Shown here: piece after piece, positions 5,724 to 30,127 of the stretch
Numbering within the stretch: position 1 is the first letter of the stretch
Layout: each line of letters opens with the position of its first letter
NCBI RefSeq assembly: GCF_015999335.1
Contig: NZ_JAEACP010000029.1
Span: 1 to 48,996, forward strand
Direction of reading: 5' to 3'
DNA: 48,996 nucleotides
Origin: Tabrizicola soli
Lineage (GTDB): Bacteria; Pseudomonadota; Alphaproteobacteria; Rhodobacterales; Rhodobacteraceae
The notes under the pieces: model-generated
Seen by the model: only the letters and a program-made list of their open reading frames with translations
Databases searched by the model: none
Told to the model about the DNA's origin: nothing
Position numbers and translations under genes: made by a program

Positions 5724-6508
5724 GACAGTATCCTCCCAAGTTCCGCGATGCATGCGTCGATGTTGTCCCGGGCGCCAGCGATCAACTTCAACGCAGCATC
5801 TATGTCGTCGCGGGCGGCGGCCCACTCCGGCGGGATCACCCCTTCATACTCCCTCAGGCGCGCGTCCGACAAGGCGGCCCAGCGAGATTTGATCGGCCCG
5901 AAGTCGATCGGCGCGCCTTTCAGCTCATGCACGAAAATATGCCTGCCGGGTGCTGCCAGATCGTTCATGCCACCGAGAATCCATGGCGCCCGCCACAACA
6001 GGATCAGCCGGTGGGCGAAGGCAAGCTCATGGTCGATGATCCGTAGATCGTCGCCGCGGACAAGACAGTTCGGGTTCTCCGCCCGCCGGTCCGGGTTCTG
6101 GATGATCGCATCGAACAGCAGGACGCTGGATGCCACAGGCCGCATCGCGTCCGACAGGCGCTGGCCGGTGGTCCAGGCCGAGAACCCCGGCGTGCGGGTC
6201 GAGCCGAAAGCGACGGGGCAACTGCGGCGCAGCTTGTCGGCGACCTGCGCGTCGGTCACGGCGGGGATGATCTCGGGCGGGATTTCGACCAGCCAGGGTC
6301 TGGGCACCGGCAGTCCCAGATCGGCGGCCAGGCAGGCGGCGATGGCCTCGCGCGCAAGGTTCACCACATTCTGGTCGCAACCCGCCGAGAGCTTGACGAA
6401 AACCTCGATCTCCTCCTCGCCGTCTGCTTCGCAGGCCGACAGGATCGGGCCCGTACGGCCCTGAATGGCAACCCTGTCGATCCGGGTCAGGACGGCGCGA
6501 GGGATCAT
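5720..6508 (-). CDS. HipA-like kinase family protein
   Basis: 262 aa, shorter than true HipA (about 440), matching the compact HipA_2 type. Kinase-like features are visible: Lys39 in VFVKL, a catalytic-loop-like NPDRRAEN (Asp140, Asn145) and a metal-binding-like IIDHELAF (Asp159). HipA proteins phosphorylate host targets and can arrest growth; the target here is unknown. Start ATG overlaps the hsdS stop (ATGA 6505-6508) and its own stop overlaps the DUF3037 start, so it is translationally coupled to a restriction system, an unusual arrangement. Confidence 0.8.
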   Translation of the reverse strand: MIPRAVLTRIDRVAIQGRTGPILSACEADGEEEIEVFVKLSAGCDQNVVNLAREAIAACLAADLGLPVPRPWLVEIPPEIIPAVTDAQVADKLRRSCPVAFGSTRTPGFSAWTTGQRLSDAMRPVASSVLLFDAIIQNPDRRAENPNCLVRGDDLRIIDHELAFAHRLILLWRAPWILGGMNDLAAPGRHIFVHELKGAPIDFGPIKSRWAALSDARLREYEGVIPPEWAAARDDIDAALKLIAGARDNIDACIAELGRILS

Positions 6509-7656: not shown

Positions 7657-9221
7657 CAAACGCACTCCTCCAGCACGGCCTTGATCTCGTCCATGATGCC
7701 GAGGATGCGCTGTTCCTGCGCGATGATCGCGTCCACGATCTCGGACGGCGCGCGGTGATCCGCGACCTCGCCGGAATGCGGGTTCTTGATGTCGAGGTTG
7801 CAGGCGATGACGCGCTTCTGCGCATCACGCTGGATCAGGTCGGCCGCAGAGACCTTCCAGGCGCGCTCATCTTCCTCGCGCTTGTTCCACCAAGCGAGGC
7901 AGCCCGCGAACTCCTCATAGACCATCGGCGCGGTCTTCGAATATTTCTTGCGGCCCTCCGGCAGCGGCATCTCGTAATACCAGATGTCTTTCGTCGGTCC
8001 GCTGGTGTCGAAGAAGATCAGGTTTGCCGGGATGTCGGTGTAGGGGGCGAACACGCCCTCGCGCAGGCGGACCACCGTGTGCAGGTTGAACCTTTCCAGC
8101 AGGTCAGCCTTGATCCGCGCCGAGATGCCATCGCCGAACAGCGTGCCGTGCGGGACGACGACCGCGGCCCGCCCGCGCCCGGCGCGTTTCAACCGCCGCA
8201 TGATCAGCTGCAGGAACAGCAGCGCCGTTTCGGCCGTGCGGCGGTCCTCGGGGAAGTTGTTGAGGATGCCCGCTTCCTCCTCGCCACCGAAGGGCGGGTT
8301 GGTGAGGATGATGTTCACCCGTTCGGCCTCGCCGATTTCGTTCAGGCGAAAGCGCAGCGCGTTGCCGGCGTCGATCCGGGGCGCATGCAACCCGTGCAGC
8401 AGCAGATTCAGCTGTGCCAGCAGGTAGGGCAATGACTTGGCCTCGCCCCCGATGATGCTGCCCTCCTGCAGGACGCGGCGTTTTTCGACGGTGTCTGCCT
8501 GCTTTTCCAGATGCAGGAAGGATTCGGTCAGGAATCCGGCGGTGCCGCAGGCGGGATCCAGGATGGTTTCACCGAGCTTCGGGTCCGTCACCTCGACCAT
8601 GAAGCGCACCACCGGGCGCGGGGTGTAGAACTCGCCCGAGTCCCCGGCGGCGTCGCGCATCTCGCGCAGCAGTGTCTCGTAGAGGCGGCCGAGGGTGTGG
8701 ACCTCTTCGGAGGAGTCGAAATGGATGCCGTCGATCAGGTTCACCACGTCGCGCAGCAGGTAGCCACTTTCCATGCGGTTGGCGAAGCCCTGAAAGACTG
8801 TGGCGATCACGTCGCGCCGCTCGCGCCGGCCATTGTCGCCCCGCAAGGCGCGCAGATAGGCGAACAGACCGGGGCCGCGGGTGCCGTCCGGCCGCTCGGT
8901 CATTTCGGAGACGAGGAACGACAGCAGGTCGGGACCGGTGATCCCATCGGCGTCTGCCGCCCAGTCACGCCAGCGATACGGGGCTTCGATGATCGGGCGG
9001 TAGTCCTTGCCCGCCAGGTCCGCGCGCCCTTCCTCGATCCGCTCCATGTCGTCGAGGAACTTCAGGAACATGATCCAGGTGAGCATCGGCAGGCGGTCAA
9101 GGTCGCCGTTCAGCCCCTTGTCCTTGCGCATGATCTTGCGCGCCGACTTGATGATGCTGTCGAGACGCTGGGCAGTGGTCAGTTGCTTCGGCGCAGCCTT
9201 CTTGCGGGCGGTTGTGGCCAA
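7656..9221 (-). CDS. hsdM: type I restriction-modification DNA methyltransferase subunit
   Basis: 521 aa from a TTG start at 9221, preceded by AAGGAG at ideal spacing; upstream frame sequence is low-complexity. N-terminal HsdM helical domain (residues 15-170), then the methyltransferase domain with SAM motif DPACGTAGF (222-230) and catalytic NPPF (308-311), the signature of N6-adenine methylation. It methylates the HsdS-specified site to protect host DNA. It lies 16 bases after hsdR and overlaps hsdS by one base. Confidence 0.93.
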   Translation of the reverse strand: MATTARKKAAPKQLTTAQRLDSIIKSARKIMRKDKGLNGDLDRLPMLTWIMFLKFLDDMERIEEGRADLAGKDYRPIIEAPYRWRDWAADADGITGPDLLSFLVSEMTERPDGTRGPGLFAYLRALRGDNGRRERRDVIATVFQGFANRMESGYLLRDVVNLIDGIHFDSSEEVHTLGRLYETLLREMRDAAGDSGEFYTPRPVVRFMVEVTDPKLGETILDPACGTAGFLTESFLHLEKQADTVEKRRVLQEGSIIGGEAKSLPYLLAQLNLLLHGLHAPRIDAGNALRFRLNEIGEAERVNIILTNPPFGGEEEAGILNNFPEDRRTAETALLFLQLIMRRLKRAGRGRAAVVVPHGTLFGDGISARIKADLLERFNLHTVVRLREGVFAPYTDIPANLIFFDTSGPTKDIWYYEMPLPEGRKKYSKTAPMVYEEFAGCLAWWNKREEDERAWKVSAADLIQRDAQKRVIACNLDIKNPHSGEVADHRAPSEIVDAIIAQEQRILGIMDEIKAVLEECV

Positions 9222-9237
9222 GTTGATCTCCTTCGAT

Positions 9238-11616
9238 TCAGGCGGTGTAGAGCAGACGCTGCAGCTCGGTGACGGCGCTGCGCAGCTCCTTGCTTCCGCC
9301 GAAGCGGGCGGCAATCTCGATCACATTGCCCCATTCGTTGAATGGCGGGACTTCGAGGATGTCGGGCAGCTTGAACTGGGCACTGCCGTGTTCGGCGTAT
9401 TTCTCGAGCACGGCATCCAGAACTTCGCGGGCATCCGGCCCGAAGCGGGCCAGAAACTCGTCCTGTTCCCGCAGCAGACGGTCAGCCCGCTCTCGCCGGG
9501 TGCGCAGCGGCGCGTTGTAGGCGAGATGGCAAAGGAGATCGAACGGGTCGGCCTCCGGCTTTCCGACCGCATCGGCCAGGGAGTCGAGGTCGATGCCCTT
9601 CTCCTCCAGCCGCTCGACGATTTCGGCCCGACGCTCGGGATCGAGCCAGTCCGTGCGCAATTCGGACGCATTGGGATAGAGCGTGCGGACCTTGTCGCCG
9701 GTGTAGTCGGTAAGCTGGCGGCAGGCGAGCTGTCGCCCCTCGGCATCGAGCTCATAAACGAGGTGCCGGACAATCGCGACCTCGCCGCCGTCGACATAGA
9801 ACTTGCGGGGACCGGTCTCGGTCTCGTCGCCGAGATCGACAGGGCCATCCGGAACATCGGGTCCATCGGGGAAATCGTCGGGATCCGGCGCCGTCTCCTC
9901 GATCTCGCGCTCCTCGACGACTTCGCCATCCGCATTGATCACCGCCTCGTCCTCTCGGACGGGATCGCCGTCAAAGGCGGGATCGGCAAACATGCGTGTT
10001 GCCGTGCCGGTATAGTCGATGATGTTGAAGGCGAGCTTGCCGTAGTCTGGCCGGAGGCGCGTGCCGCGCCCGATGATCTGCTTGAACTCCGGCATGGAGC
10101 CCACGACGCGGGCGAGCACGACGTTCTTGCAGGTCGGGGCGTCCACGCCGGTGGTGAGAAGTTGCGAAGTGGTGAGGATGACCGGCGTCTGGGTCTCGAC
10201 ATCCTGGAACTTCGCCCGGTGCGCGCTGCCGACATCACCCTCGTCGGACGTCACCCTACAGACGTAGTCGGGATGATCCTTCACGAGATCGGTGTTCAGG
10301 GCGGCGAGCGCCTGCCGCATTTCGAGCGCGTGTTCCTGGTCGACGCAGAAGACGATGGTCTTGGCGAAGCGGTCGGTCTCGGCCATGAAGCCCGCGAGGT
10401 GTTTCGCGATGGCCTGCGTTCTTGCACGAAGCGCCACGACCCGCTCGAAGTCTCGCGTGGAGTATTCGGCGTCGGGGATCTCACGTCCGTAGCGGTCAAG
10501 CTCGCCCCGCGTCGGGCGCCAACCGGCAGCATCGTAGTCCGAGATGACACGGTGAACGCGGTACGGGGCAAGGAAGCCGTCGGCGATGCCCTGCGCAAGG
10601 CTGTATTCGTAGAGCGGATCGCCGAAGTAGTTGTAGGTGTCGACGTTGTCCTCGCGCCGCGGCGTCGCCGTCATGCCGATCTGGGTCGCGGGCTCGAACC
10701 ACTCGAGAATCTCGCGCCAGTTGCTGTCGTCCCGCGCGCTGCCCCGGTGGCATTCGTCGATGATGATGAGGTCGAAGAAGTCGCGAGCATATTCGCGATA
10801 GAGGCCGGGGCGGTTCTCGTCACGCGCGATGGACTGGTAGATCGCGAAATACATATCGCGGCTCTTGACCGCCATGCCACCAGCGATCTTGTGCCGAGCA
10901 TCGCCGAACGGGCTGAAATCCTTGGCCATCGGATCGTCGACCAGGACATTCCTATCAGCAAGAAACAGGATCTTCGGGTTTCTGTTCACCCCTTTCGAGT
11001 TCCAGCGTGCCGACCAGAGCTTCCAACTGATCTGGAAGGCAACGGCGGTCTTGCCCGATCCGGTACAAAGGGTGAGCAGTGCCCGCTTCCTGCCCTGAAG
11101 CGCCGCCTGAACGGCGCGGTTCACGGCGATCTCCTGATAATAGCGAAGGGGCTTGGCCCGATCCGGAAATGTGGGCGTCAGCAGCCGTTCGGCCACTTGG
11201 TCATCGACGATGCCCTCGGCGCGGCGGAGCCGGGCCCAGAGGTCATCAGGCGCCGGAAAATCCCCGATAGTTCGCTCGATCCCGGTCGTATAGTCGAATT
11301 CGACGATTTCGATGCCATTGGTGGAATACGCGAACCGAAGGCCAAGGATCTCGGCATACTCCTTGGCTTGCTGAAGCCCCTCTGCGGCATGCCTGTAGCG
11401 GGACTTGGCTTCAACAACCGCGATCGGAAAGTCTGGATTATACCGAAGCAGATAGTCAGAGCGCTTCTGCTTGCCCCGGCGCGCCTTGCCGCCGACAAAC
11501 ACGACCCGGCCGTCAGTGAAAGTTCTCTGCTCGTTGATGGCGTGAGGGCGATCGTCCCAGCCGGCTGCCTGCAGCTTGGGGACGACGAACTTCCTGCAGG
11601 TATCGGCCTCGTTCAT
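9238..11616 (-). CDS. hsdR: type I restriction endonuclease subunit R
   Basis: 792 aa. The N-terminal nuclease domain has the PD-(D/E)XK residues Asp54 and Glu69-Ala-Lys71. Helicase/translocase domain follows with Walker A TGSGKT (185-190), DECH box (287-290), TATPRRED, and the RGTRLRPD motif VI region. An acidic linker (about 580-610) precedes the C-terminal domain. ATG 11616 is preferred over the TTG two codons upstream. As first gene of the operon it would cut unmodified invading DNA. All key motifs appear intact. Confidence 0.93.
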   Translation of the reverse strand: MNEADTCRKFVVPKLQAAGWDDRPHAINEQRTFTDGRVVFVGGKARRGKQKRSDYLLRYNPDFPIAVVEAKSRYRHAAEGLQQAKEYAEILGLRFAYSTNGIEIVEFDYTTGIERTIGDFPAPDDLWARLRRAEGIVDDQVAERLLTPTFPDRAKPLRYYQEIAVNRAVQAALQGRKRALLTLCTGSGKTAVAFQISWKLWSARWNSKGVNRNPKILFLADRNVLVDDPMAKDFSPFGDARHKIAGGMAVKSRDMYFAIYQSIARDENRPGLYREYARDFFDLIIIDECHRGSARDDSNWREILEWFEPATQIGMTATPRREDNVDTYNYFGDPLYEYSLAQGIADGFLAPYRVHRVISDYDAAGWRPTRGELDRYGREIPDAEYSTRDFERVVALRARTQAIAKHLAGFMAETDRFAKTIVFCVDQEHALEMRQALAALNTDLVKDHPDYVCRVTSDEGDVGSAHRAKFQDVETQTPVILTTSQLLTTGVDAPTCKNVVLARVVGSMPEFKQIIGRGTRLRPDYGKLAFNIIDYTGTATRMFADPAFDGDPVREDEAVINADGEVVEEREIEETAPDPDDFPDGPDVPDGPVDLGDETETGPRKFYVDGGEVAIVRHLVYELDAEGRQLACRQLTDYTGDKVRTLYPNASELRTDWLDPERRAEIVERLEEKGIDLDSLADAVGKPEADPFDLLCHLAYNAPLRTRRERADRLLREQDEFLARFGPDAREVLDAVLEKYAEHGSAQFKLPDILEVPPFNEWGNVIEIAARFGGSKELRSAVTELQRLLYTA

Positions 11617-11773
11617 GCGCAATCTACTTTGCCCGGTTTCGACATGCCGTCGCGCGGCCCACGGCTTGTCAAAGAACTCGGCTCAGATCAATGCGCAATT
11701 CTTTGGTTTGGCGGCTCTTTCGCCTGACAACGGCTCCCAGAGGCTACAGTCTGGCCGACTGCTGCCGCAAGCC

Positions 11774-12169
11774 CTATTGCGTCCCGGGCAACAGGGATTC
11801 GATCTGACCCGACCATTCATCCGGAATCTGCCCACGCAGGGACTGGAGTGTGAGGCCCGGCGGCTGCCGCCCTTCAAGGATCGCCTCGACGAGATCGGGG
11901 GCAAGCTGCGTCAGCCGAAGCACCCGCGTGAGGTAGGAGACCGCGATACGCTCGCGCGCGGCCAGCTCGGCGACCGTGGCGAAATCCCCGGATTCCAGCA
12001 TACGCTTCCAGCGGAAGGCCCGGGCCAGCGCCTTGACGAGGGCATCATCGGGACGGCGCTGGGCGGATGCGCCCTCGGACAGCAGCATCTCCTTCCGCCC
12101 GCCTCGCTTGATGATGCGAAACGGGACATGGATGGTGACGGTCTCGGGGATCGGTGTGGCACGGGTCAT
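11774..12169 (-). CDS. recombinase-associated HTH protein
   Basis: 131 aa. The middle (ATVAELAARERIAVSYLTRVLRL, about 65-87) reads as a ParB/KorB-type helix-turn-helix, followed by a short C-terminal region (LTLQSLRGQIPDEW). ATG overlaps the recombinase stop (ATGA 12166-12169). Genes like this commonly follow DUF2924/serine recombinase cassettes in alphaproteobacterial islands; a role in recombination directionality or regulation is inferred, not shown. Confidence 0.7.
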   Translation of the reverse strand: MTRATPIPETVTIHVPFRIIKRGGRKEMLLSEGASAQRRPDDALVKALARAFRWKRMLESGDFATVAELAARERIAVSYLTRVLRLTQLAPDLVEAILEGRQPPGLTLQSLRGQIPDEWSGQIESLLPGTQ

Positions 12170-13488
12170 ACTGTTGCTCCGATGTCGGTGGCCATTTCGC
12201 GCGCCAGCCCGGCCAGCCCGTCCATGCGCAGCCGGACCTTCAGGCCTTCGGTGCCGATCTCGACCCGCTCGACCAGAAGCCCAACGATGCGGGCCTGTTC
12301 GGCGGGGAAGAGTTCATCCCACAGCGGGTCGAGCCGGATCAGCGCGTCGCGCGCGTCGGCCTCGGTGATCTCGCCGTGCTGCACCCGCGCGGCCTTCCAC
12401 GTGCCCGCGACGATTTCCGGCTGGCGGAACACGGCGCGAAGCTGGTCGATGATGGCAGCCTCGATCTCACCTGCGGGCACGCGACCGATGGGACATGCGC
12501 CCGCGCCATGCTTCAGCACGGTCTGGCTGACGTAATAGCGATAGAGCCGCCCGCCCTTGCGGGTGTGGGTCGGCGAGAACGCCGCGCCGTCCGGCCCGAA
12601 CAGCAGCCCCTTCAGCAGTGCGGGCGTGTCGGCGCGGGTCCGGGCGGCGCGCTTGCGCGGGCTTTCGGTCAGGATGGCGTGAACCCGGTCCCACGTTTCG
12701 CGGTCGATGATGGCGTCGTGCTCGCCGGGATAGCTCTCGCCCTTATGCACCGCCTCGCCGATATAGGCACGGTTCGACAGCATCCGGTAGATGTACTTCT
12801 TGTCGATCCGGTTGCCGTGCGGGGTGCGGATGCCGCGCTTGCCCACCTCCCGCGCCAGTTCCGTGCAGGACCCGATCTCGAGAAACCGGGCGAAGATCCA
12901 GCACACATGCGCGGCGGATTCCTCATCCACCAGCAGCTTGCGATTCTCGACCCGATAGCCATAGGGCGGGACCCCGCCCATCCACATCCCCTTCCTGCGG
13001 CTGGCGGCGACCTTGTCGCGGATGCGCTCGGCCGTCACCTCGCGCTCGAACTGGGCGAAGCTGAGCAGGATGTTCAGTGTCAGCCGCCCCATCGAGGTGG
13101 TGGTATTGAACGACTGCGTCACCGAGACGAAGGTCACACCGTTCCGGTCGAACACCTCGACCAGCTTGGCAAAATCCGCCAGCGAGCGGCTGAGGCGGTC
13201 GATCTTGTAGACCACCACCACATCGACCAGCCCGTCCTCGATGTCGTCTATCAGCCGCCGCAGGCCCGGCCGTTCCAGCGTGCCGCCGGAGATGCCGCCG
13301 TCATCATACTGATCGCGGACCAGCACCCAGCCTTCGGATCGTTGGCTGGCGATGTAGGATTCGCAGGCCTCCCGCTGGGCGTGCAGGCTGTTGAACTCCT
13401 GCTCCAATCCCTCCTCGGAGGATTTCCTTGTATAGACGGCGCAGCGGAGCTTGCGGACGGGTTTCGGCTTTTCCGACGGCTTCGTCAT
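12166..13488 (-). CDS. large serine recombinase (site-specific integrase/invertase family)
   Basis: 440 aa. N-terminal resolvase domain has the nucleophile Ser23 in AVYTRKSSEEG, then DDGGISGGTLERPGL and VYKIDRLSRSL motifs; next come the recombinase domain (about 190-290, GVPPYGYR) and a C-terminal part equivalent to the zinc-ribbon region (YRYYVSQTVLKHG) that appears to lack most zinc Cys, as is common in this alphaproteobacterial group. It is the only integrase candidate in the window and may mobilise the island or the prophage. Start ATG 13488 overlaps the DUF2924 stop. Confidence 0.9.
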   Translation of the reverse strand: MTKPSEKPKPVRKLRCAVYTRKSSEEGLEQEFNSLHAQREACESYIASQRSEGWVLVRDQYDDGGISGGTLERPGLRRLIDDIEDGLVDVVVVYKIDRLSRSLADFAKLVEVFDRNGVTFVSVTQSFNTTTSMGRLTLNILLSFAQFEREVTAERIRDKVAASRRKGMWMGGVPPYGYRVENRKLLVDEESAAHVCWIFARFLEIGSCTELAREVGKRGIRTPHGNRIDKKYIYRMLSNRAYIGEAVHKGESYPGEHDAIIDRETWDRVHAILTESPRKRAARTRADTPALLKGLLFGPDGAAFSPTHTRKGGRLYRYYVSQTVLKHGAGACPIGRVPAGEIEAAIIDQLRAVFRQPEIVAGTWKAARVQHGEITEADARDALIRLDPLWDELFPAEQARIVGLLVERVEIGTEGLKVRLRMDGLAGLAREMATDIGATV

Positions 13489-13940
13489 GCCCGACCCCGG
13501 TGGTTCTTCAGCCCGAAGAACACCCAGCCGTTCCAGCGGGTGCCAGTGATCGCGCGGGCGATGGCCGACAGCGACTTGTAGGGCCGGCCCTGCCATTCGA
13601 AGCCGTCGGCGGTGACGGTGACGATCTGTTCGACGCCCTGCCACTCGCGCAGAAGCCGTGTGCCGGTAATGGGGCGGTCGCGGTCGGCGCGGATGCCGCG
13701 CTTATTTCGATCGCCGCCGTCGAGTTCCTCGCCCAGCCGTTCCAGCCGCCGGATCGTCTCCGGTTTTAGCCCGCCATGGGCGAGTTCCTGGATCCGGTAG
13801 GACAGCCGACTCTCCAGGTAACGGCGGTTGAACGGCGGCGGCTCGCTGTCGAACAGGTCGCGCCACTGTTTCTTCAGGTCGAGCGTCGGCGTGGTCTTGA
13901 GCGCGGCGAGGCGCGCGGGAATGGGATCGGGCTTGTTCAT
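13485..13940 (-). CDS. DUF2924 domain-containing protein
   Basis: 151 aa. Typical DUF2924 features: LAALKTTPTLDLKKQWRDLF near the N-terminus, NRRYLESRLSYRIQELAHG, and a C-terminal EWQGRPYKSLSAIARAITG block resembling a small DNA-binding fold. The family is nearly always adjacent to large serine recombinases and is thought to assist them. It overlaps the recombinase and the upstream 67-aa gene by 4 bases each. Confidence 0.88.
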   Translation of the reverse strand: MNKPDPIPARLAALKTTPTLDLKKQWRDLFDSEPPPFNRRYLESRLSYRIQELAHGGLKPETIRRLERLGEELDGGDRNKRGIRADRDRPITGTRLLREWQGVEQIVTVTADGFEWQGRPYKSLSAIARAITGTRWNGWVFFGLKNHRGRA

Positions 13941-14140
13941 GCATTTCTCCGGCGAGTTGGAGTTGCATGACGGCATTTGTCGTGCGGAGAGTGTAGGCAA
14001 CGTTCTCCAGTATCGTCAGATACTTCGCCCATTTCCCGCATCCGCAGCCGAACCAGCCCGAGCGCCATCAGGCCGCACAGCTCGGCGCGGCGTTCCGCGG
14101 GCGTCATCTGGTCGGGCGGGAGCGGATTGGGGCGCTTCAT
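13937..14140 (-). CDS. recombinase-cassette small protein, 67 aa
   Basis: Starts MKRPNPLPPDQMTPAERRAEL, a sequence style common for the small protein upstream of DUF2924. It has a predicted helix (residues 12-35) and a His/Cys-containing tail. First gene of the four-gene minus-strand cassette, with ATGA overlap to DUF2924. No clear Shine-Dalgarno. Function unknown. Confidence 0.65.
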   Translation of the reverse strand: MKRPNPLPPDQMTPAERRAELCGLMALGLVRLRMREMGEVSDDTGERCLHSPHDKCRHATPTRRRNA

Positions 14141-14214
14141 GTCGAGGGGATACCTGTTCGGTGCTGTCGATACCGATCAAAAGCCACCCGGATGCGCGGA
14201 ACGGGACAAGACCG

Positions 14215-14242
14215 TTGCCAGTGTGCTCTGGCCGAATAGACT
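14215..14242 (+). promoter_or_regulatory. possible sigma70-type promoter
   Basis: TTGCCA (14215-14220) and TAGACT (14237-14242) are 16 bases apart, about 50 bases before the TTG start of the 712-aa gene, in the 150-bp divergent gap with the recombinase cassette. Match is moderate only. Confidence 0.25.
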
Positions 14243-14290
14243 AGCGTTCGAAGATCTCGTCCGCTGTGTATCGCGTAGGTTGGAACTGTC

Positions 14291-16429
14291 TTGGCAAAAC
14301 GAAGCGCTGAAAATAATCCAAGTCTTGAGCTGCTCATCAAGGAAGCGGCTCCCGCACTGGTTGGCAAATTTCTTTCACATCCCGACTTCACTAGTCTGGG
14401 ATTGGGCGTTGTCGGCCAAGCGGAGGGGGCGGTCGAAACCGCAGTTTCGGAGATTCGGCGCAAGTCAGCGGCTGCTTCCTTTCAAATTGAACAGGCAGCT
14501 TCCGAGATTCTGGATCAGTCAGAGGACGTCCCAGACCGCTTAGCTCTTCGTATCGTAGAGGAGCGGCTGAGCGACGAATTTATTTCCCGGTATCGAGATA
14601 CTGTTGGTGGCCTCAATAGAGCACTATTAAGATGGATCGAAGCTCCATCCGTTTTTGTCGAAGTTGATCGAACCTGGCGTTTCCAGAGGTTCCGGGAAAC
14701 TGGTCGTTTTTATGAAGGGCGCTTTGTCGATATTCCCATTCGACTGTCAACTGACGACATAGAGTGCGACAAACTTGAACAGGAAATTGAGTCGCAGCTT
14801 GGACTGGTCGACGGCTGCAAAGTCTATGCTTGGAACGACCTCAGTGCAGACCCCCGAAGTGATAGAATCATATTACTCGTGATGAGTGGCGGCCAAAATG
14901 TGCGTGTTCGCGAATGGAAAACGGGACAAGAACCAAGGCCACTAGATTATCAACCAGTCGACGAATTTCTGATTAGCTACACCCCCTCTCGCGGCATGAT
15001 CGAGGTATGCGCTCAAGATCCGGTTGCTCGCCGTGTGCTGGGTGAATCTTTTGCGAAGAAGGTTTTGAATGTAGACCTGTTGACCCGACCACTGAGCTGG
15101 GAGGTTTATAATCTTTGGCGGTTTCGCGAGACAGTGGAGCTCGACATTCCGGCACATCTGAAAGGACGCGTTCTCGCAACTACTGTCATCGAAGCTTCCA
15201 TAACTGCTGGGATCAAGGGACAGACTTTCTCTGCAAAATGCGGACCGAAGGACGACATGCGTCCCTTCGCGAAAAGGCTCTTGGCCGCGGTTCGGGGACT
15301 GCCAGGGGCTGGCAGGATAGTACGGGTCGTAATTCATGTGACTTACCAGCCGCACGGGAGGGAGCGTGCGTCAAGCTTTACCTTTGCCTTGTCAGGGAAA
15401 AACCGCTCGACGGTCGCGGGCCTCAGGCAGAGGGAGCGCATCGCAATTGCAAATGCACTTCTGGAGCATTGGAAAGTTGTTGAAAAATATCAGTCACTCT
15501 CGGGCGCAGAGATGAGCACTGCCATACCAAATATCCTTCGTTTGCTGGACCACGCCCCGGGGCCCGTCGAGGCGGACATGATCGAAGGTCTCGGGGGAGA
15601 CATCGCTCTATTGAACAAGGCCAGCATTACTGTCCGTCGCGGGCTCGCAGATATTGTCCTTTTAGAGGACGAACTTTGGAATGTGGGTGATGATGCAGTC
15701 CTGAAGGCAGATGGAAGCGTCGTTGCAGTCGACTCAGAGAAACGTGAAGGTCCCACTCTCCCGCGTAAGGTGGTCGAGCAATACGAAATTCGCACCGACG
15801 AAATACTGCATGAAATCCTGTCTGCGATGACATTTGTAAAGCGCACAGGGCGGCGCGTTTCCGAAACAAAAAATCTCTGGCGGGTCGGCAGCGTTGAGAT
15901 CGAAGGTGTAACTATCCCGGTGTGGATCGCCCGTAACCTCGACAATGGAGAGGTTTGTGCGGAAGTCGATACAGCGTTGCGCCGGATGCCTGATTTGCCC
16001 CAGGGAGTGGTCTTGGCAACAGGTGTGTCGCCTTTCCAGTGTCTTGGCAGTCATGTTGTTGTTCCCATTACTTCTTGCCTGGGTCCAGGCAAAGAAGCTG
16101 ATGCAGAGCTTTTGAAGACCGAATTTCTTGCCGGTCGGGCTCTCGCCGCAGCAGGCGAGCGCGCGCGGCTTTTGCAGGTGGGTGCTACCCTTGCCAAACT
16201 TGTCGTTCCCGGGAAAGGCGAGATTGTCGTGAACGGCAAGACGCGGGTCGATGCGACGCGCCTAATGGTGGACGCCGCGAACGCGGGCGGCCTAGCCGTG
16301 CCGACAGGCGACATCTGCGGTGAAGGCATGGATCATCCAAGGCAGGTATACGGCACCGCTTTATGGAAGGACCTATACCCCAAGTTCATCGAGAGTGGGG
16401 GACGAGGGTCGTGGCGCATCGCACGCTAA
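14291..16429 (+). CDS. unrecognised 712-aa protein, accessory candidate
   Basis: A long frame starting TTG (14291). The DNA is visibly richer in A/T than its neighbours, with codons such as aaa, att and ttt, suggesting separate acquisition. I see no Walker, nuclease, protease or membrane motif. The N-terminal third is helical (QIEQAASEILDQSED), the middle (about 100-330) alternates strand-like segments, and the last 90 residues (DATRLMVDAANAGG and GTALWKDLYPKFIE) could be a winged-helix-like domain. It stands alone between a recombinase cassette and the phage early genes, where cargo genes are common. Defence or host-interaction role is only inferred from location. Confidence 0.75.
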   Translation: MAKRSAENNPSLELLIKEAAPALVGKFLSHPDFTSLGLGVVGQAEGAVETAVSEIRRKSAAASFQIEQAASEILDQSEDVPDRLALRIVEERLSDEFISRYRDTVGGLNRALLRWIEAPSVFVEVDRTWRFQRFRETGRFYEGRFVDIPIRLSTDDIECDKLEQEIESQLGLVDGCKVYAWNDLSADPRSDRIILLVMSGGQNVRVREWKTGQEPRPLDYQPVDEFLISYTPSRGMIEVCAQDPVARRVLGESFAKKVLNVDLLTRPLSWEVYNLWRFRETVELDIPAHLKGRVLATTVIEASITAGIKGQTFSAKCGPKDDMRPFAKRLLAAVRGLPGAGRIVRVVIHVTYQPHGRERASSFTFALSGKNRSTVAGLRQRERIAIANALLEHWKVVEKYQSLSGAEMSTAIPNILRLLDHAPGPVEADMIEGLGGDIALLNKASITVRRGLADIVLLEDELWNVGDDAVLKADGSVVAVDSEKREGPTLPRKVVEQYEIRTDEILHEILSAMTFVKRTGRRVSETKNLWRVGSVEIEGVTIPVWIARNLDNGEVCAEVDTALRRMPDLPQGVVLATGVSPFQCLGSHVVVPITSCLGPGKEADAELLKTEFLAGRALAAAGERARLLQVGATLAKLVVPGKGEIVVNGKTRVDATRLMVDAANAGGLAVPTGDICGEGMDHPRQVYGTALWKDLYPKFIESGGRGSWRIAR

Positions 16430-21966: not shown

Positions 21967-22733
21967 TGCTGGACTATAATCGCCGTCCCAGCTTCGCCGA
22001 CCGGGTCAACGCCGCCGTCGATCAGGCGCTCACCGCCGATCAAGCCACGCGGCCGCCCCGCGACTATCTCGGCGGCTCGCGCCTCGGCCATGCCTGCGAG
22101 CGCGCCCTGCAGTTCGAGTTCACTTCGACGCCGAAGGACGAGGATCAGGAGTTCACCGGGCAGGCGCTGCGCATCTTCGCCATCGGCCACGCGCTCGAGG
22201 ATCTGGCCGTCGCCTGGCTGCGCGGCGCGGGCTTCGACCTATACACCCGCAAGGGCAACCGGTCCGATGGCGGCCAGTTCGGTTTCTCGGTCGCTGGCGG
22301 GCGCATCCGCGGTCATGTCGACGGGATCGTCGCCGCCGGGCCCGAAGGCTTCGGTCTCGCCGTTCCCGCGCTCTGGGAATGCAAGACCATGAACGCGAAG
22401 AATTGGCGCGCCTGCGTCAAGGACGGCGTGACGAAGTCGAAGCCGGTCTACGCCGCCCAGATCGCGGTCTATCAGGCCTACATGGAAGGAACGGTCCCTG
22501 GCATCTCGGCCGCGCCCGCGCTCTTCACCGCGATCAACAAGGACACCGCCGAGCTGCACCACGAGCAGGTCGCCTTCGACGCTGATCTCGCGCAGCGCAT
22601 GTCCGACCGGGGCGTCCGGATCCTGCAGGCGACCGATGCGGGCGAGCTGTTGCCCCGTATCGGCACCAACCGCGACTTCTTCGAATGCCGCTTCTGCCCA
22701 TGGGCCGCGCGCTGCTGGGGGCTGCCCGGATGA
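21966..22733 (+). CDS. Cas4-like PD-(D/E)XK nuclease with four-Cys cluster
   Basis: 255 aa. Nuclease residues: His75 in GHALED, Asp119 in GHVDG and Glu138-x-Lys140 (ECKTM). Cys44 plus Cys241, Cys244 and Cys250 give the one-plus-three spacing of an iron-sulfur cluster, as in Cas4 and AddB-type exonucleases. No CRISPR or cas genes are nearby, so this is a phage replication or recombination exonuclease rather than an adaptation protein. It overlaps the primase start by four bases. Confidence 0.82.
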   Translation: MLDYNRRPSFADRVNAAVDQALTADQATRPPRDYLGGSRLGHACERALQFEFTSTPKDEDQEFTGQALRIFAIGHALEDLAVAWLRGAGFDLYTRKGNRSDGGQFGFSVAGGRIRGHVDGIVAAGPEGFGLAVPALWECKTMNAKNWRACVKDGVTKSKPVYAAQIAVYQAYMEGTVPGISAAPALFTAINKDTAELHHEQVAFDADLAQRMSDRGVRILQATDAGELLPRIGTNRDFFECRFCPWAARCWGLPG

Positions 22734-25129
22734 GCAACGCGCCCGTCGAGCCGCCCGATCCACCCCAGACACTTGAGGATGCGCCCATGACCGCCGATTA
22801 CGAAGACCGCTCCGCCCCGCCCGACGCATCGACGGGCAATCTCGTCCACTTCAACCCCTGGCGGGATTTCAACGATGCCGCCCCGACGGCCGATGTCTTC
22901 GGCGACGAGCCCGACCCCGAGCAGATCACCCAGTTCATGGAGGTGGTCTTTGGCTACTGCGACGGTCTGATCCCGGTGCGCAGTTTCATCGACAAGGGGC
23001 AGGGCATCGACGGCCGCCCGCACAACATCTGGATCGAGGCCGAGGCGGGTGTTGCTGGAAAGATGGCCACCTTCGCCACATGGGCCTCGCGTGAGGGGGC
23101 CGCAGTCTATGTCATCCCCGGCACGGTCGCCGCAGTCGGCCATGCCAAGGCGACGGAAATCCTGCAGATGCAGGCCGTGGTCGTGGACATCGACAGCGGT
23201 GACATCGCCGCCAAACGCGCTCATCTGGAGCGCCATCTCGGGCCGCCCACCATGGTCGTGGAAAGCGGTGGTGTCACGGCCGAGGGGCAGCGCAAGGCCC
23301 ATGTCTGGTGGAAACTCACAGAACCCGCCGAGGGCAGCGACATCGCCCGCGTGACGCGCCTGCGCGGCGACATTGCCGCCAAGGTCGGGGGCGACATGCA
23401 TTTCCGCTCGGCCCACCAGCCGATCCGGGTGGCTGGGTCTGTCTATTACAAGAACAACCTCAAGACGCAGGTCCGGATCGTCGAACTGAACGCGGGCCTC
23501 GAGCGGGATGTGGGAGAGTTCATCGAGGCTGTGGCCGACATGCCTCCTGCACCCGGTATCAGTCAGGCACCGGATTTCGCCACGCCGGACAAGCCCCGCG
23601 TCGACGATGTGCTGGTAACCCCGGTGCGCGAGGGTGGGCAGGACGACTGGTCCCGTTTCGAGGGGGCATCGGCCGCGATCGGCCATTTCATCCGCATGGT
23701 CCACGAGGGCCGGATGTCGAAGGACGAGGGCTGGCAGGCGATCTGTGGCTACAACGCCGCCATGCTGCGGCCCCAGTGGCCGGTGGAGAGGCTCAAGCGC
23801 GAGTCCGAGCGCCTCTGGGCGATCCATGTCGAGAATCATGGACCACCGCTGATCCGGCTCGACAGCGCAGCACCTGTGCCGAATGAACTGCCCTCATTCA
23901 CGCTGGGTGCGCTACTCGACGACCAGAGCCCGATGCCCGCCGACATCATCGCGCCGCGCGTCCTGACGCCTGGGGGGCTTCTGGTTCTTGGCGGCGCGCC
24001 CAAGGTCGGCAAGAGCGATCTCTTGATTTCCTGGCTCGTGCACATGGCGGCGGGCCAGCCATTCCTCGGCTTCACTCCGCCACGGCCCCTGAGAATCTTC
24101 TACCTGCAGGCGGAGATCCAGTATCACTATCTGCGGGAGCGCATGCAGCAGGTGACGCTGCCCGCGAGGCTTCTGATCGCCGCCCGCGACAACCTGGTTG
24201 CCACGCCAAAGCTGAAGATGCTGCTGGACACCGAGGGCAGCGTGCGCGTGGCGCAAGCTATCCGGCATGCTTTCCCGGGCGATCCTGTCGACATCATCTG
24301 CATCGACCCCATCCGCAATCTCTTCGACGGCGGCCCGGACGGCGGCGGCGAGAACGACAACGCCGCGATGATGTTCTTCCTGAAGGACCGAGTCGAGGTT
24401 TTGCGCGACCACATCAGCCACGACTGCGGCGTCATCCTGGTCCACCATACCAAGAAGCTCAGCAAGCAGCAGGTGAAGGATGATCCCTTCCTCGCCCTCT
24501 CGGGGGCCAGCGCGCTCAGGGGTTTCTACACCACCGGCCTGATCCTGCACCGCCCCGACGAGGACAACCCGCAGCGCAAGCTCGAGATCGAGTTGCGTAA
24601 CGGTCCAGCTTTGACCGCCAAGCTGATCGACAAGGTCAGGGGCGAATGGGTCGAGATAAACGCCATCAACGAACGGCTGGTGCGCGCTGAGGTGGGGGCA
24701 AAGCACGATGCTGAGCGCGACCGCAAGGGCGAGGCGATCGTCCACATCCTCATGAACGAGGCCCTGACGGGCCGGATGTACACCATGACCCTGTTCGCCG
24801 AGTCCTTCGAGAACACGAGCGGCCTCAGCGGCCAGACCAGCATCCGCGACCGCCTCAATGTGCTGACCACCAAGGGGGTCATCAAGTTCGTCAAGGGCGA
24901 CGCTGCCAGCGCCCTCGGCCTGCCGACGGATCGCAGCAAGTATGGCTATCTCTGCACCGAGTTCATGGAGCTGGCGATCGGTGACGAGGTCGTGGATCCC
25001 GACACCGGTGAAGTCCGCTTGGCGCGGATTCCGGTGCTACCGAGTCACTACAAATGCCCCCAAACCGGAGCGCTCCTGCCGGTCGAAAACCCCGCTGTCT
25101 GGGTCTATCCGGAGGGGTTTGAGGGATGA
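22730..25129 (+). CDS. primase-polymerase/helicase fusion (RepA-type AAA ATPase)
   Basis: 799 aa. The N-terminal part looks like an AEP/RepB-type primase: VVVDIDSGD (Asp153, Asp155), His191 in KAHVWWKL, and AHQPIRVAGS. After a linker comes a RecA-fold ATPase (AAA_25): Walker A GGAPKVGKSD (421-430), Walker B IICIDPI (about 520), and VILVHHTKK. It probably initiates phage DNA synthesis. ATG 22730 overlaps the nuclease stop; ATG 22787 is an alternative. The iteron cluster starts 26 bases after its stop. Confidence 0.82.
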   Translation: MSNAPVEPPDPPQTLEDAPMTADYEDRSAPPDASTGNLVHFNPWRDFNDAAPTADVFGDEPDPEQITQFMEVVFGYCDGLIPVRSFIDKGQGIDGRPHNIWIEAEAGVAGKMATFATWASREGAAVYVIPGTVAAVGHAKATEILQMQAVVVDIDSGDIAAKRAHLERHLGPPTMVVESGGVTAEGQRKAHVWWKLTEPAEGSDIARVTRLRGDIAAKVGGDMHFRSAHQPIRVAGSVYYKNNLKTQVRIVELNAGLERDVGEFIEAVADMPPAPGISQAPDFATPDKPRVDDVLVTPVREGGQDDWSRFEGASAAIGHFIRMVHEGRMSKDEGWQAICGYNAAMLRPQWPVERLKRESERLWAIHVENHGPPLIRLDSAAPVPNELPSFTLGALLDDQSPMPADIIAPRVLTPGGLLVLGGAPKVGKSDLLISWLVHMAAGQPFLGFTPPRPLRIFYLQAEIQYHYLRERMQQVTLPARLLIAARDNLVATPKLKMLLDTEGSVRVAQAIRHAFPGDPVDIICIDPIRNLFDGGPDGGGENDNAAMMFFLKDRVEVLRDHISHDCGVILVHHTKKLSKQQVKDDPFLALSGASALRGFYTTGLILHRPDEDNPQRKLEIELRNGPALTAKLIDKVRGEWVEINAINERLVRAEVGAKHDAERDRKGEAIVHILMNEALTGRMYTMTLFAESFENTSGLSGQTSIRDRLNVLTTKGVIKFVKGDAASALGLPTDRSKYGYLCTEFMELAIGDEVVDPDTGEVRLARIPVLPSHYKCPQTGALLPVENPAVWVYPEGFEG

Positions 25130-25154
25130 GCTTGGGCGCCCCGATACGATCCGC

Positions 25155-25351
25155 AATCTGGCGCGTCGATCCCGAAATCTGGCCAGATTTCGCGCAATCT
25201 GGAATCCCGGCGCAATCTGGAATCTGGCTTTTCTGCCGTGATTTCAAATGCTTGATGGCCGCGATCCAGATTGCGGAGGGGGTCGTCCGAAATCTGATCC
25301 GCAATCTGGAGTCTGCAATAAATATCAGTGGGTTGCGCCAGATTCCAGATT
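25155..25351. repeat. iteron cluster, putative phage replication origin
   Basis: The heptamer AATCTGG is present exactly six times on the plus strand (25155, 25176, 25196, 25214, 25221, 25303) and four times as CCAGATT (25183, 25266, 25338, 25345), plus AATCTGA at 25291. Many are preceded by CGC or CGA. Two copies meet head to head in a perfect 20-bp palindrome (25173-25192). A short A/T-rich stretch (25316-25327) lies among them. Location directly after a primase/helicase gene fits an origin bound by the initiator. Confidence 0.75.
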
Positions 25352-25370
25352 TCGGAAAGAGCCCCCCTAA

Positions 25371-25418
25371 AGGGGTGGGTGCACCCCCCGCAAGGGCGGG
25401 GATGCACCACCCACCCCT
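25371..25418. repeat. large composite hairpin beside the iterons
   Basis: AGGGGTGGG..TGCA (25371-25383) pairs with 25403-25418 except for a three-base bulge, and encloses a second perfect hairpin CCCCGC-AAGG-GCGGGG (25386-25401). No T run follows. It could mark the edge of the origin or act as a transcription pause before the resolvase gene. Confidence 0.55.
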
Positions 25419-25541
25419 GGGCGATGTTCCCGGGCCGAAACCTTGGTCCGAGGACGATCCGACGACGGCGGCCCCGTACCGCCAAGCACCAGACCGCCGT
25501 CGTCTTCCACCACCACAGGCCACCGGCAAGGGAGACCCATC

Positions 25542-26081
25542 ATGGCTCAGCCGACTCTGATCCCCAATTGCGACGGCGCAAGGCTTGAATCGCTGCCGCT
25601 CGACACGCCCCGCAACCGCTGCATCCTCGCGCTCGACCTCGGCACCTCGACCGGCTGGGCGATCCGCGGCCATGACGGCCTGATCACCAGCGGCACCGTC
25701 TCGCTGCGCCCCGGCCGCTTCGACGGCGGCGGCATGCGCTACCTGCGCTTCACCAACTGGCTGACCGAGATCGACCGGCTGTCCGGTCCAGTCGCCGCGA
25801 TCTGGTTCGAGGAAGTCCGCCGCCACGCGGGCACCGACGCGAGCCATATCTACGGCGGGCTCATGGCCACGCTGACCGCATGGGCGGAACTGCGCGGCGT
25901 GCCCTACGAGGGCGTCCCGGTCGGCACGATCAAGCGTCATGCCGCTGGCAGGGGCAACGCCGACAAGGCCGCGATGGTCGCCGCCGTCCGCGCCCGCGGC
26001 TTCAGCCCCGCCGACGACAACGAGGCCGACGCCATCGCCATCCTGCTCTGGGCGATCGAGACGAAGGGAGGTATCGCATGA
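25542..26081 (+). CDS. RuvC-like Holliday junction resolvase
   Basis: 179 aa with the RNase H-like fold residues: Asp32 in ALDLGTSTGWA, Glu90 in IWFEEV and the late acidic pair in DDNEADAIAIL (about 158-168). Such phage resolvases trim branched DNA before packaging. The 412-bp gap upstream is the origin-like region. ATG 25542 chosen for domain fit; upstream frame is Pro/Arg-rich. Overlaps the next gene by ATGA. Confidence 0.85.
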   Translation: MAQPTLIPNCDGARLESLPLDTPRNRCILALDLGTSTGWAIRGHDGLITSGTVSLRPGRFDGGGMRYLRFTNWLTEIDRLSGPVAAIWFEEVRRHAGTDASHIYGGLMATLTAWAELRGVPYEGVPVGTIKRHAAGRGNADKAAMVAAVRARGFSPADDNEADAIAILLWAIETKGGIA

Positions 26082-27797: not shown

Positions 27798-29123
27798 ATG
27801 ACCCTCGCCTTCGCCCCCGAGCGGATCGAGACTTGGCCGCTTGCACGCCTCGTGCCCTACGCAAGGAACGCCAAGCTGCATGGGGCCGACCAGGTCGCCA
27901 AGATCGCCGCCAGCATGGCCGAGTTCGGCTGGACCGTGCCCTGCCTTGTGGCCGAGGACGGAGAGCTGATCGCGGGCCACGGCCGCGTCCTGGCGGCGAC
28001 GCAGCTCGGTCTGACCGAGGCGCCGGTGATCGTGCTGGGGCATCTGACCGAGGCGCAGCGGCGTGCCTACCGCATTGCGGACAACAAGCTGACGGAACTC
28101 GGCACGTGGGACGAGGCGCTGCTGTCGGCGGAACTCAACGACCTGCTCGCAGAAGATTTCGACCTGTCGCTGGTCGGCTTCTCGGATGGCGAGTTGGACA
28201 AGCTTCTGGCCTTCGTGCCGGAAGGCGATGGCGAGGAAGCTGGCGCCGGGGGCTCCGTGCCGCCGGTGACCATCCCCGAGCCGCCGCGCAATCCGGCGTC
28301 GCGCACCGGCGACCTGTGGATCCTCGGCGATCACCGGCTGCTTTGCGGCGACAGCACCAGCCCTGACGATGTGCGCCGTCTGATGAACGGCGAGCGGGCG
28401 ATCCTGTTCGCCACCGATCCGCCATACCTAGTGGATTACGACGGTTCGAACCACCCGACGCGGAACAAGGACTGGTCGCAGTCCTACGGCGTCACTTGGG
28501 ACGACAGTTCGCAGGGCGCGGAACTCTACGACGGCTTCATCGCCGCCGCTGTCGCCGAGGCAATCACTGAGGATGCAGCCTGGTATTGCTGGCATGCCTC
28601 GCGCCGCCAGGCGATGCTGGAGGCCTGCTGGGAAAAGGCCGGAGCCTTCGTCCATCAGCAGATCATCTGGGTGAAGGACCGCGGGGTTCTGACCCGCTCC
28701 CATTACCTCTGGAAGCACGAGCCCTGCTTCATGGGCTGGCGCCGCCCCAACCGCCCGCCGAAGGTGGCCGAGCAGACGCTGCCCTCGACCTGGGAAATGC
28801 CATCCTTCGCCAAGGACGAGCGCCCCGACCATCCGACGCCGAAGCCGCTCGATGCTTTCGGCATCCCGATGCGCCAGCATGTGGCACGCGGCGGGCTTTG
28901 CTACGAGCCGTTCTCCGGGTCCGGGTCGCAGATCATGGCAGGCGAGGCCAACTATCGCCGCGTCTTCGCGATGGAGATCAGCCCCGCCTATGTCGATGTC
29001 GCCGTGGAGCGCTGGCAGGCCGAGACCGGCAAGGATGCGATCCTCGATGGCGATGGCCGAACCTTCGCAGCCGTGAAGGCCGAGCGGCTGGGGCCCGACA
29101 CAGATACAGACGCTGCCGCCTGA
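27798..29123 (+). CDS. ParB-domain/N6-adenine DNA methyltransferase
   Basis: 441 aa fusion. The N-terminal ParB-like domain (about 10-95: LVPYARNAKLH, ELIAGHGRVLA) is followed by a beta-class methyltransferase with DPPY (207-210) before FSGSGS (372-377). It modifies adenine, probably to protect phage DNA from host restriction. The ParB-like part may load it on DNA. Its stop overlaps the cytosine methyltransferase start (TGATG). Not part of the HsdRMS complex. Confidence 0.9.
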   Translation: MTLAFAPERIETWPLARLVPYARNAKLHGADQVAKIAASMAEFGWTVPCLVAEDGELIAGHGRVLAATQLGLTEAPVIVLGHLTEAQRRAYRIADNKLTELGTWDEALLSAELNDLLAEDFDLSLVGFSDGELDKLLAFVPEGDGEEAGAGGSVPPVTIPEPPRNPASRTGDLWILGDHRLLCGDSTSPDDVRRLMNGERAILFATDPPYLVDYDGSNHPTRNKDWSQSYGVTWDDSSQGAELYDGFIAAAVAEAITEDAAWYCWHASRRQAMLEACWEKAGAFVHQQIIWVKDRGVLTRSHYLWKHEPCFMGWRRPNRPPKVAEQTLPSTWEMPSFAKDERPDHPTPKPLDAFGIPMRQHVARGGLCYEPFSGSGSQIMAGEANYRRVFAMEISPAYVDVAVERWQAETGKDAILDGDGRTFAAVKAERLGPDTDTDAAA

Positions 29124-30127
29124 TGGCCGTCTATTACAACGATTCCGACCCCGCGGCCTGTGCCTGGCTGCGGGAACTGATCGCGGTCGGCCAGTTGCCC
29201 GCAGGCGAGGTGGATGAACGCTCCATCCTCGACGTGGAGCCGTCCGACCTGCGGGGCTTCACGCAATGCCATTTCTTCGCCGGGATCGGCGGCTGGCCCC
29301 ATGCGCTGCGCCTCGCCGGCGTGGCCGAGGACCGGCCGGTCTGGACCGGTTCGCCGCCCTGCCAGCCGTTCAGCCAGGCCGGGCAGCGCAAGGGACAGAA
29401 CGATGACCGCCACCTCGCCCCCGCATTCCTGCGCCTCGTTGCCGCCTGCCGCCCGGACCTCGTCTTCGGCGAGCAGGTTGCCAGCGCGGCGGTGCTCGGA
29501 GCGTCTGGCCGAATGGCTGGAACAGCGGCTGCGGACACGGCTGGCTGGGCGTGGTTCGACGCTCTGGCGGATGCGCTGGAGGCGGCATCTTACGCCGTCG
29601 CGGCGGCCGATCTGCCGGCTGCGTGCATCGGCGCCCCGCATATCCGCCAGCGGCTGTTCTTCGGCGCCGTCGCCATGGAACCCGGCGATGGCGGGCTGGG
29701 CCACGGCCTCGGCGCGCGATCACAAGGACGGTGCGGAATGTCTGAATGTCCCGATCAATGCGCTGCTGGGCCGACAGGTCTGGTTGGCGGGCTGGCCGAC
29801 GCCGATGGCCGGATCGCCGGCCACAGAGAGCTACAACGCAGCCGGCAATACCGATGCCAGCCGCAGGACCGTGGCGCTACTGAACTGGACGGACCCCTCG
29901 TCGATCCCGCCGGGACCGGCGCGACGGACGGCGTCTGGCGCGATCCGGACTGGCTCCTCTGCCGCGATGGGCGCTGGCGACCGGTTGAGCCCGGAACATT
30001 CCCGCTGGCTGATGGGATATCCGGCCGCATGGGGCTCTTGCGGGGCTACGGCAATGCGATCGTGCCGCCGCTCGCGGCGGAGTTCGTGACGGCGTTTCTG
30101 GAATGCCTGCCGGAGGGTCTGCGATGA
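29123..30127 (+). CDS. DNA cytosine C5-methyltransferase
   Basis: 334 aa. Motif I FFAGIGGW (51-58), catalytic PCQPFSQ with Cys80, motif VI as GEQVAS (Gln in place of the usual Asn), QRLFF (motif VIII) and YGNAIVPP (motif X), so the frame is complete. The C-terminal third is odd: the +1-shifted frame at 29712-30089 also reads like a methyltransferase C-terminus (see separate entry). Coupled to the adenine enzyme upstream and by ATGA to the DUF7220 gene. Confidence 0.85.
   Translation: MAVYYNDSDPAACAWLRELIAVGQLPAGEVDERSILDVEPSDLRGFTQCHFFAGIGGWPHALRLAGVAEDRPVWTGSPPCQPFSQAGQRKGQNDDRHLAPAFLRLVAACRPDLVFGEQVASAAVLGASGRMAGTAAADTAGWAWFDALADALEAASYAVAAADLPAACIGAPHIRQRLFFGAVAMEPGDGGLGHGLGARSQGRCGMSECPDQCAAGPTGLVGGLADADGRIAGHRELQRSRQYRCQPQDRGATELDGPLVDPAGTGATDGVWRDPDWLLCRDGRWRPVEPGTFPLADGISGRMGLLRGYGNAIVPPLAAEFVTAFLECLPEGLR
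29712..30089 (+). other. alternate-frame methyltransferase-like C-terminus
   Basis: In the frame one base ahead of the main gene, 125 codons read ARDHKDGAE, AGWPTPMAGSPATESYNAAGN, GPARRTASGAIRTGSSAAM and SRWLMGYPAAW. These are the hallmark segments of C-termini in a large group of phage-type cytosine methyltransferases. The main frame simultaneously carries motif X. It could be ancient overprinting, a frameshift relic or a frameshifted isoform. Confidence 0.5.

Follow-up and report, generated by a model that had tools for sequence, protein, structure and literature searches.

In a prophage of Tabrizicola soli, an array of short repeats directly behind a primase–helicase gene is probably the phage replication origin. 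Judging from sequence comparisons, we put at about 0.85 the probability that this origin is bound by the C-terminal domain of the initiator encoded beside it and is inherited with that domain as a cassette. The DNA analysed, hereafter the window, is a stretch of 48,996 bp. It carries a tailed prophage with its own terminase, portal, protease, capsid, tape measure and tail genes, whose replication block encodes a Sak4-like protein, a helicase, a Cas4-like exonuclease, an 814-residue PrimPol–helicase (here the initiator), RuvC, DUF6362 and two methyltransferases. The initiator and RuvC genes flank the array. An earlier reading of the same letters without database searches (the sequence-only reading) had named it a candidate phage origin, and this proposal is supported by comparative evidence: the position and layout of the array, the way in which its repeat type tracks the C-terminal domain, the sites resembling those of integration host factor (IHF), and a hairpin. 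The features needed first are these.

22685..25129, + strand: initiator gene, 814 residues; AEP/PrimPol domain at about 75–290, RecA-like helicase (AAA_25) at about 400–660, C-terminal winged-helix-like domain at about 676–811
24725..25126, + strand: codons for residues 681–814, the stretch that tracks repeat type; candidate origin-recognition domain, with a recognition helix at 717–729 by secondary-structure prediction
25151..25354, no strand: repeat array, CCGnAATCTGG-like, ten exact copies and one near copy in both orientations, with a 20-bp palindrome inside at 25173–25192
25542..26081, + strand: RuvC-like gene beyond the array, used as a control; phrog_159 with E 1.1e-27 (open reading frame taken from 25443), start by inspection

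The repeat array and its scaffold

Exact copies of AATCTGG start at 25155, 25176, 25183 (minus), 25196, 25214, 25221, 25266 (minus), 25303, 25338 (minus) and 25345 (minus), and the near copy, AATCTGA, is at 25291, in agreement with the count of the sequence-only reading. Its estimate of about 0.02 chance copies is borne out by the shuffle rate, which gives about 0.018 per 197 bp; the palindrome and the adjacent pairs at 25214/25221 and 25338/25345 are likewise real. The array was also rightly placed, the first copy being 25 nucleotides past the stop codon of the initiator frame, and the composite hairpin described behind it is present at 25361..25422. Three details had to be amended. First, the heptamer is genuine, but the repeat unit is longer, approximately CCGnAATCTGG. 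Second, the initiator was given 799 residues, which holds from an internal Met; from the first start codon it has 814. Third, the A/T-rich patch among the copies exists but is modest, with A+T peaking at 60% per 30 bp (25220–25249 and 25295–25324).

No 7-mer clusters more densely anywhere in the window: the array has 10 copies per 250 bp, as against 5 at best elsewhere. AATCTGG occurs 13 times in the 48,996 bp, i.e. three times outside the array (shuffles: mean 4.59, maximum 11). A genome-wide count, as had been suggested, gave five AATCTGG pairs at most 25 bp apart in the host assembly, every one in the array, and none for the reversed control; the close-pair pattern AATCTGGN{0,25}AATCTGG has no match in that assembly outside the array.

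For comparison, 80 loci were fetched from viral contigs (the best 80 of 596 confirmed candidates) and 80 from genome contigs (the best 80 of 326), some contigs being in both sets, and a search of 61 genomes (the host and relatives) gave 20 places, including the window and a second, partial host match. With duplicates and regions below 100 bp left out, 141 distinct 3′ regions remained, including the window and three found in the 61-genome search. Visual sorting gave 15 repeat types, plus one group in which no clear repeat could be seen. AATCTGG clusters, defined as five or more copies in 300 bp, are found in 58/160 loci (42/137 distinct regions), and in all 58 they start 22–53 nucleotides past the initiator stop. 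It is therefore literally true that this array can be absent where the primase gene is kept, an outcome the sequence-only reading had named as damaging; most loci without an AATCTGG cluster, however, have another repeat in the same place. The types include CCGnAATCTGG (43 regions), CCGAAACTGG (20), CCAGAACACGG (14), GAGGACGAACA (13), GATGACAGAGG, GATGACAAAGG and ATGAGGAAGG (7 each), AACTCCTC (6), and types seen once, AAATTTG among them; some types are only one or two bases apart. In 97/141 regions the seed 7-mer chosen is commoner than in any of 50 dinucleotide shuffles; for the commonest 7-mer this holds in 109/141 (A 41/43, C 14/14, H4 12/13, B 15/20, H1 6/7, H5 6/6, I 4/4). Four loci that match on the opposite strand were examined separately: L172 has eight copies of AAATCTG, L173 and L174 look class-B-like, with counts not above shuffles, and L178 has nothing.

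Beneath the changing repeats lies a scaffold that changes far less. When 14 arrays are aligned, the repeats vary and the spacer and hairpin columns are common to them. The features of this scaffold, and of the frame that runs through it, are as follows.

25242..25254, + strand: IHF-like site 1, TTTCAAATGCTTG, one mismatch to WATCARnnnnTTR
25323..25335, + strand: IHF-like site 2, TATCAGTGGGTTG, exact consensus match, 81 bp from site 1
25361..25422, no strand: composite hairpin 1, a candidate ssi-like site for primase initiation; folds as DNA at −25.6 kcal/mol (z −3.05)
25461..25504, no strand: hairpin 2, GACGACGGCGG/CCGCCGTCGTC, before RuvC; optional in relatives, left arm in 88/132 loci
25126..25560, + strand: ATGA-coupled frame, 144 codons, whose stop codon begins 16 nucleotides after the first base of the RuvC start codon

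In the window, the repeat sites form three groups parted by two IHF-like spacers. Measured from the stop codon with one mismatch allowed, they lie at 25>, 46>, 53<, 66>, 84>, 91>, 136<, 161>, 173>, 208< and 215<. An array of CCAGAACACGG (L124) has its sites at 25<, 45>, 52<, 68>, 83>, 90>, 126<, 133<, 171>, 207< and 214<, and one of AAATTTG (L020) at 24, 45, 65, 83, 90, 137, 160, 172, 209 and 216, by the same rule. Most sites of classes A, C and D coincide within 1–3 bp when measured from IHF-like site 1; classes H, B and I have other site maps. Exact matches to the IHF consensus WATCARnnnnTTR (PMC8407004) number 71 in 138 regions, as against 2.5 expected. A pair of IHF-like sites 78–82 bp apart, with at most three mismatches over both, occurs in 110/138 regions, compared with 1.1 in shuffles and 7–28 in four other spacing bands; under a strict cut of at most one mismatch over both sites, the pair remains in 54/138 and the other bands fall to 0. 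The host has genes for both IHF subunits above the NCBIfam cut-off.

Directly behind the array, an inverted repeat has a stem that beats all ten shuffles in 106/135 loci, the start of the searched stretch having been set by hand for each class group; it is weak in N and C2. At hairpin 1, 4 of 17 consensus pairs are changed on both sides (24 loci), and two inner pairs are often broken. No terminator-like site was found there. By analogy with known systems, hairpin 1 might be a priming site, an assignment that we make tentatively.

The frame that begins at the ATG overlapping the initiator stop (ATGA; 90 loci outside the H classes) is kept open across the array. Among those 90 loci it meets a stop within its first 74 codons in 2, versus 82 and 70 for the other two frames. 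Open frames outnumber those of a column-shuffle control that ignores kinship: 39/41 vs at most 30 in class A, 20/20 vs 18 in B and 14/14 vs 13 in C. With H included, 99 loci are ATG-linked. In 34 of these the frame reads on into RuvC; in 28 it stops ahead of the RuvC ATG, in 8 close to that ATG, and in 4 well beyond it in a different frame; 25 are not judgeable. H1–H4 have short frames (5–63 codons), and H5 and N have no ATG. A protein-coding role for the array was considered and rejected. The frame is open, yet its codon positions vary about equally, with substitutions of 0.256/0.237/0.291 in A, 0.299/0.285/0.310 in B and 0.213/0.186/0.184 in C, so that no protein sequence is conserved; at the end of the primase gene the corresponding values are 0.081/0.063/0.305 in C and 0.157/0.139/0.417 in B, the class A control being unusable owing to length differences. 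It is a guess on our part that the open frame shields the operon mRNA from Rho-dependent termination.

Repeat type and the C-terminal domain of the initiator

The primase, the helicase and the C-terminal domain are encoded in a single reading frame of 814 codons. The PrimPol fold is best matched in Foldseek by the S-2L PrimPol, with RSF1010 RepB′ also close (3h25, E 3.4e-6; 3h20, E 8.1e-6), a likeness at the level of fold. In Pfam, the helicase part matches PF13481 (AAA_25) alone, even at E up to 10, and its fold is RAD51/DMC1-like. A sequence search of the PDB gave nothing credible, and no record in the phage collection covers at least 80% of the initiator, the best being Wolbachia phages over residues 389–655. 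For the C-terminal domain, 3/22 members match LexA_DNA_bind in Pfam, with a best E of 0.027; this match was not used. The host has a second gene (L232; host contig C13, 86500–95500) with the PrimPol half only, at 39% identity and with no array behind it.

The repeat class is followed closely by this C-terminal domain. For residues 681–770, the nearest neighbour belongs to the same class in 131/137 loci, compared with 55/137 for core residues 61–400 and 58/137 for 401–660. The class labels are not perfect, L105 and L166 appearing mislabelled, and these two loci account for as many as three of the six mismatches. L050 and L159 were left out of the protein matrix, and 8/77 proteins with an in-frame stop in the chosen stretch were removed before alignment. 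Other genes gave 64/119 (RuvC), 50/132 (Cas4-like), 46/105 (DUF6362), 40/110 (DUF6511), 43/94 (helicase), 41/91 (phrog_2300) and 29/87 (Sak4); the ParB-like methylase scored 18/73, as against 66/71 for the C-terminal domain in the same loci, and the second methylase 1/3, too few loci to judge. These scores exceed label permutation (about 16–19 for RuvC, Cas4-like, DUF6362, DUF6511 and helicase), as is to be expected among related phages. On trees built with FastTree from 139 proteins, the repeat class changes 17 times on that of the C-terminal domain (minimum 15) and 64 times on that of the core.

The association does not depend on the labels. When protein distances are compared with distances in repeated 6-mers (135 loci), Spearman correlations are 0.56 for residues 681–770 and 0.61 for 771–814, vs 0.12 for 641–680 and 0.05 for the core, and Mantel permutations give at most 0.09. 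Its 5′ limit is sharp and falls at residue 681, the domain boundary, where the silhouette passes from −0.03 (641–680) to +0.43 (681–720). Class information is highest in columns 737–754, 701–707 and 755–770. The simplest reading of these comparisons is that the domain at residues 681–814 reads the repeats, and that domain and array travel as a cassette.

The origin reading and its rivals

A mechanism can be outlined on this basis, in which binding, IHF occupancy, helicase loading and origin firing are steps that we infer. The C-terminal winged-helix domain of the adjacent PrimPol–helicase would bind the repeats, and the two IHF-like sites, 81 bp apart, would bend the DNA and gather the groups of bound sites. 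The RecA-like helicase part would then be loaded and open the DNA, whereupon the PrimPol part would prime, perhaps at the hairpin just past the array, which is the weakest step of the scheme, at somewhat less than even odds. C-terminal domain and array would be inherited, and swapped between phages, as a single cassette; such exchange would account for relatives with similar initiator cores but different repeats. Raw GC skew is equivocal: its mean over the 12 kb after the array exceeds that over the 8 kb before it in 21/21 loci, with a sign change that is not seen in every locus.

Several observations weigh against this reading. At four-fold synonymous sites there is no clean skew switch at the array; the mean is negative in the genes upstream and in RuvC, capsid and tape-measure, near zero in the genes that come next, and clearly positive in terminase only. 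The winged-helix call rests on a structure model with middling structural matches, and the predicted recognition helix (717–729) is less informative on class than the wing and the residues next to it. The array abuts the C-terminal codons, so that part of the association may be linkage. In 32/141 regions the commonest 7-mer is not above all 50 shuffles (among them N 9/9, H3 6/7, H2 5/7 and B 5/20), class N has no visible array, and the IHF-like pair is missing from classes B (0/20) and I (0/4). Long flanks were available for 20 relatives; in 13 of them no other stretch reaches the 7-mer count of the array region, in 3 another stretch equals it and in 4 another exceeds it. No array was found in the distant relatives L177 and L178 (the latter being the same place as L233); elements with the PrimPol half only (L232, L234–L236) likewise have none, and no 7-mer above 50 shuffles. 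Finally, L229, an element of a betaproteobacterial plasmid, matches residues 402–808 only and has, in the same place, four AGTTGGC and a hairpin-like stretch, the count being not above shuffles.

DnaA boxes are absent from the window even with one mismatch, and 137 loci gave 1 exact and 77 one-mismatch boxes; Rfam gave nothing above chance. Prophage incompatibility left no signal, since in 8 genomes with two copies the classes differ in 6, with a same-class chance of 0.147.

We regard it as unlikely that the array is an operator through which the initiator or another phage regulator would control transcription from RuvC to the late genes. The array does lie between co-directional genes, the frame across it is kept open, and IHF sites are also found at promoters. 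However, no sigma-70-like promoter was found in 24900–25700, in a search that covered the sigma-70 type; the repeat type follows the initiator's own C-terminal domain and not other tested genes; and the array stands after, not before, the gene of its likely binder.

Very improbable, in our judgement, is linkage as the whole explanation, whereby array and C-terminal codons would travel as neighbours and another protein would read the repeats. The two do abut, and exchange is evident on both sides. Linkage alone is nevertheless made less likely by RuvC, which lies about 0.4 kb away across the array and is largely uncoupled; moreover, the association stops sharply at a domain boundary, and no other tested gene follows the repeat type. 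We give almost no credence to a role in partition or packaging, with the ParB-like methylase fusion or terminase binding a parS-, pac- or cos-like site: repeats and IHF sites are known from such sites and the ParB-like gene (27798–29123, a methyltransferase with a ParB-like N-terminal part) is 2.5 kb downstream of the array, but it follows the repeat class far less than the C-terminal domain does in the same loci, and the terminase gene is 6.3 kb off.

A broader proposal may be ventured, to which we give somewhat less than even odds: that this is a temperate-phage family in which recognition domain and origin form an exchangeable cassette, with the repeat rewritten into about a dozen sequences or more while repeat sites and IHF-like sites kept nearly fixed positions and the enzyme stayed constant. 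In ATG-coupled classes, the whole origin would lie within a translated frame that opens at the initiator's stop codon and is kept free of stops without amino-acid constraint, so that ribosomes would cross it toward RuvC. Such a family, with recognition domains and repeats in matched pairs while the enzyme is constant and the scaffold almost so, would make a natural data set for reading and testing the recognition code of winged helices and iterons, and C-terminal domain and repeat type would offer a simple handle for locating origins in a large, mostly alphaproteobacterial group of prophages.

Known replication systems and neighbouring genes

In its proposed manner of working, the array system is like the rep-ori of Staphylococcus aureus pathogenicity islands and phage-inducible chromosomal islands (SaPI/PICI) and the oriV of RSF1010, yet it belongs to neither. 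A literature search turned up, in the portions it covered, no paper on the present family. In SaPI/PICI, an origin made of short iterons lies directly behind the initiator helicase gene, and the C-terminal domain of that helicase recognises them (PMC7581432, PMC6092414); it is a gene–origin order which, according to PMC6092414, no other known bacterial replicon shares. Here, too, the putative origin is immediately 3′ of the initiator gene, in the window and in the same place in relatives, and the window array consists of multiple short iterons; the relation of C-terminal domain to iterons is seen here as an association. Set beside the two iteron sets around one A/T-rich region of the SaPI/PICI origin, the present layout is an ambiguous case, with three site groups parted by two IHF-like spacers and A+T of at most 60% per 30 bp. 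Several differences are apparent. The repeats are interleaved with two IHF-like sites, and a hairpin and an open frame are added. The helicase is a RecA-like AAA_25 instead of the DUF927 or Primase_Cterm (D5-type) described in PMC7581432. Lastly, SaPI/PICI are helper-dependent satellites, unlike the present phage with its own structural and packaging genes.

Phage P4 alpha protein (ori/crr) unites primase, helicase and C-terminal winged-helix origin binding in one protein, as predicted here, with a helicase family and an origin layout other than those of the window phage; RSF1010 RepA is a RecA-fold helicase. The primase of P4 alpha is of the TOPRIM type (PMC4234260). In RSF1010 (IncQ), RepC binds the iterons, RepA exposes stem-loops and RepB′ primes there at ssi sites, as set out in PMC4234260. 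The likeness to its oriV lies in the RepB′-like PrimPol fold, the helicase, the iterons and the stem-loops, and the hairpin kept here by compensatory change is by analogy a candidate counterpart of the ssi hairpins. RepA, RepB′ and RepC are separate proteins, however, whereas here one polypeptide is found, and a homologue of RepC was not identified. What RSF1010 divides among three proteins would be joined in one phage protein encoded beside its origin. ORF904 of pRN1 combines primase, helicase and a C-terminal winged helix, with a 3′ stem-loop as putative origin that is variable in sequence and conserved in structure (PMC4234260). Domain order, with the winged helix predicted here, and a stem-loop 3′ of the gene are shared; ORF904 differs in its SF3 helicase and in an origin without iterons, which dominate here next to a RecA-like helicase.

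Elsewhere in these phages, other clustered short repeats, ATCCCCC and CGAAACG-like, occur about 8 kb before the array (L209, L213, L219) and 1.8 to 4.4 kb after it (L189, L205, L201). In the window, the second methyltransferase frame (28586–30127) overlaps the ParB-like methyltransferase gene. G+C dips to 0.54–0.55 at 14001–16000, compared with 0.58–0.74 in the rest of the window, and a 712-residue frame at 14291–16429 has no Pfam or PADLOC match. A complete-looking type I restriction-modification set with S, M and R subunits occupies 6508–11622 on the minus strand, adjoined by a serine-recombinase-like integrase at 12169–13644.
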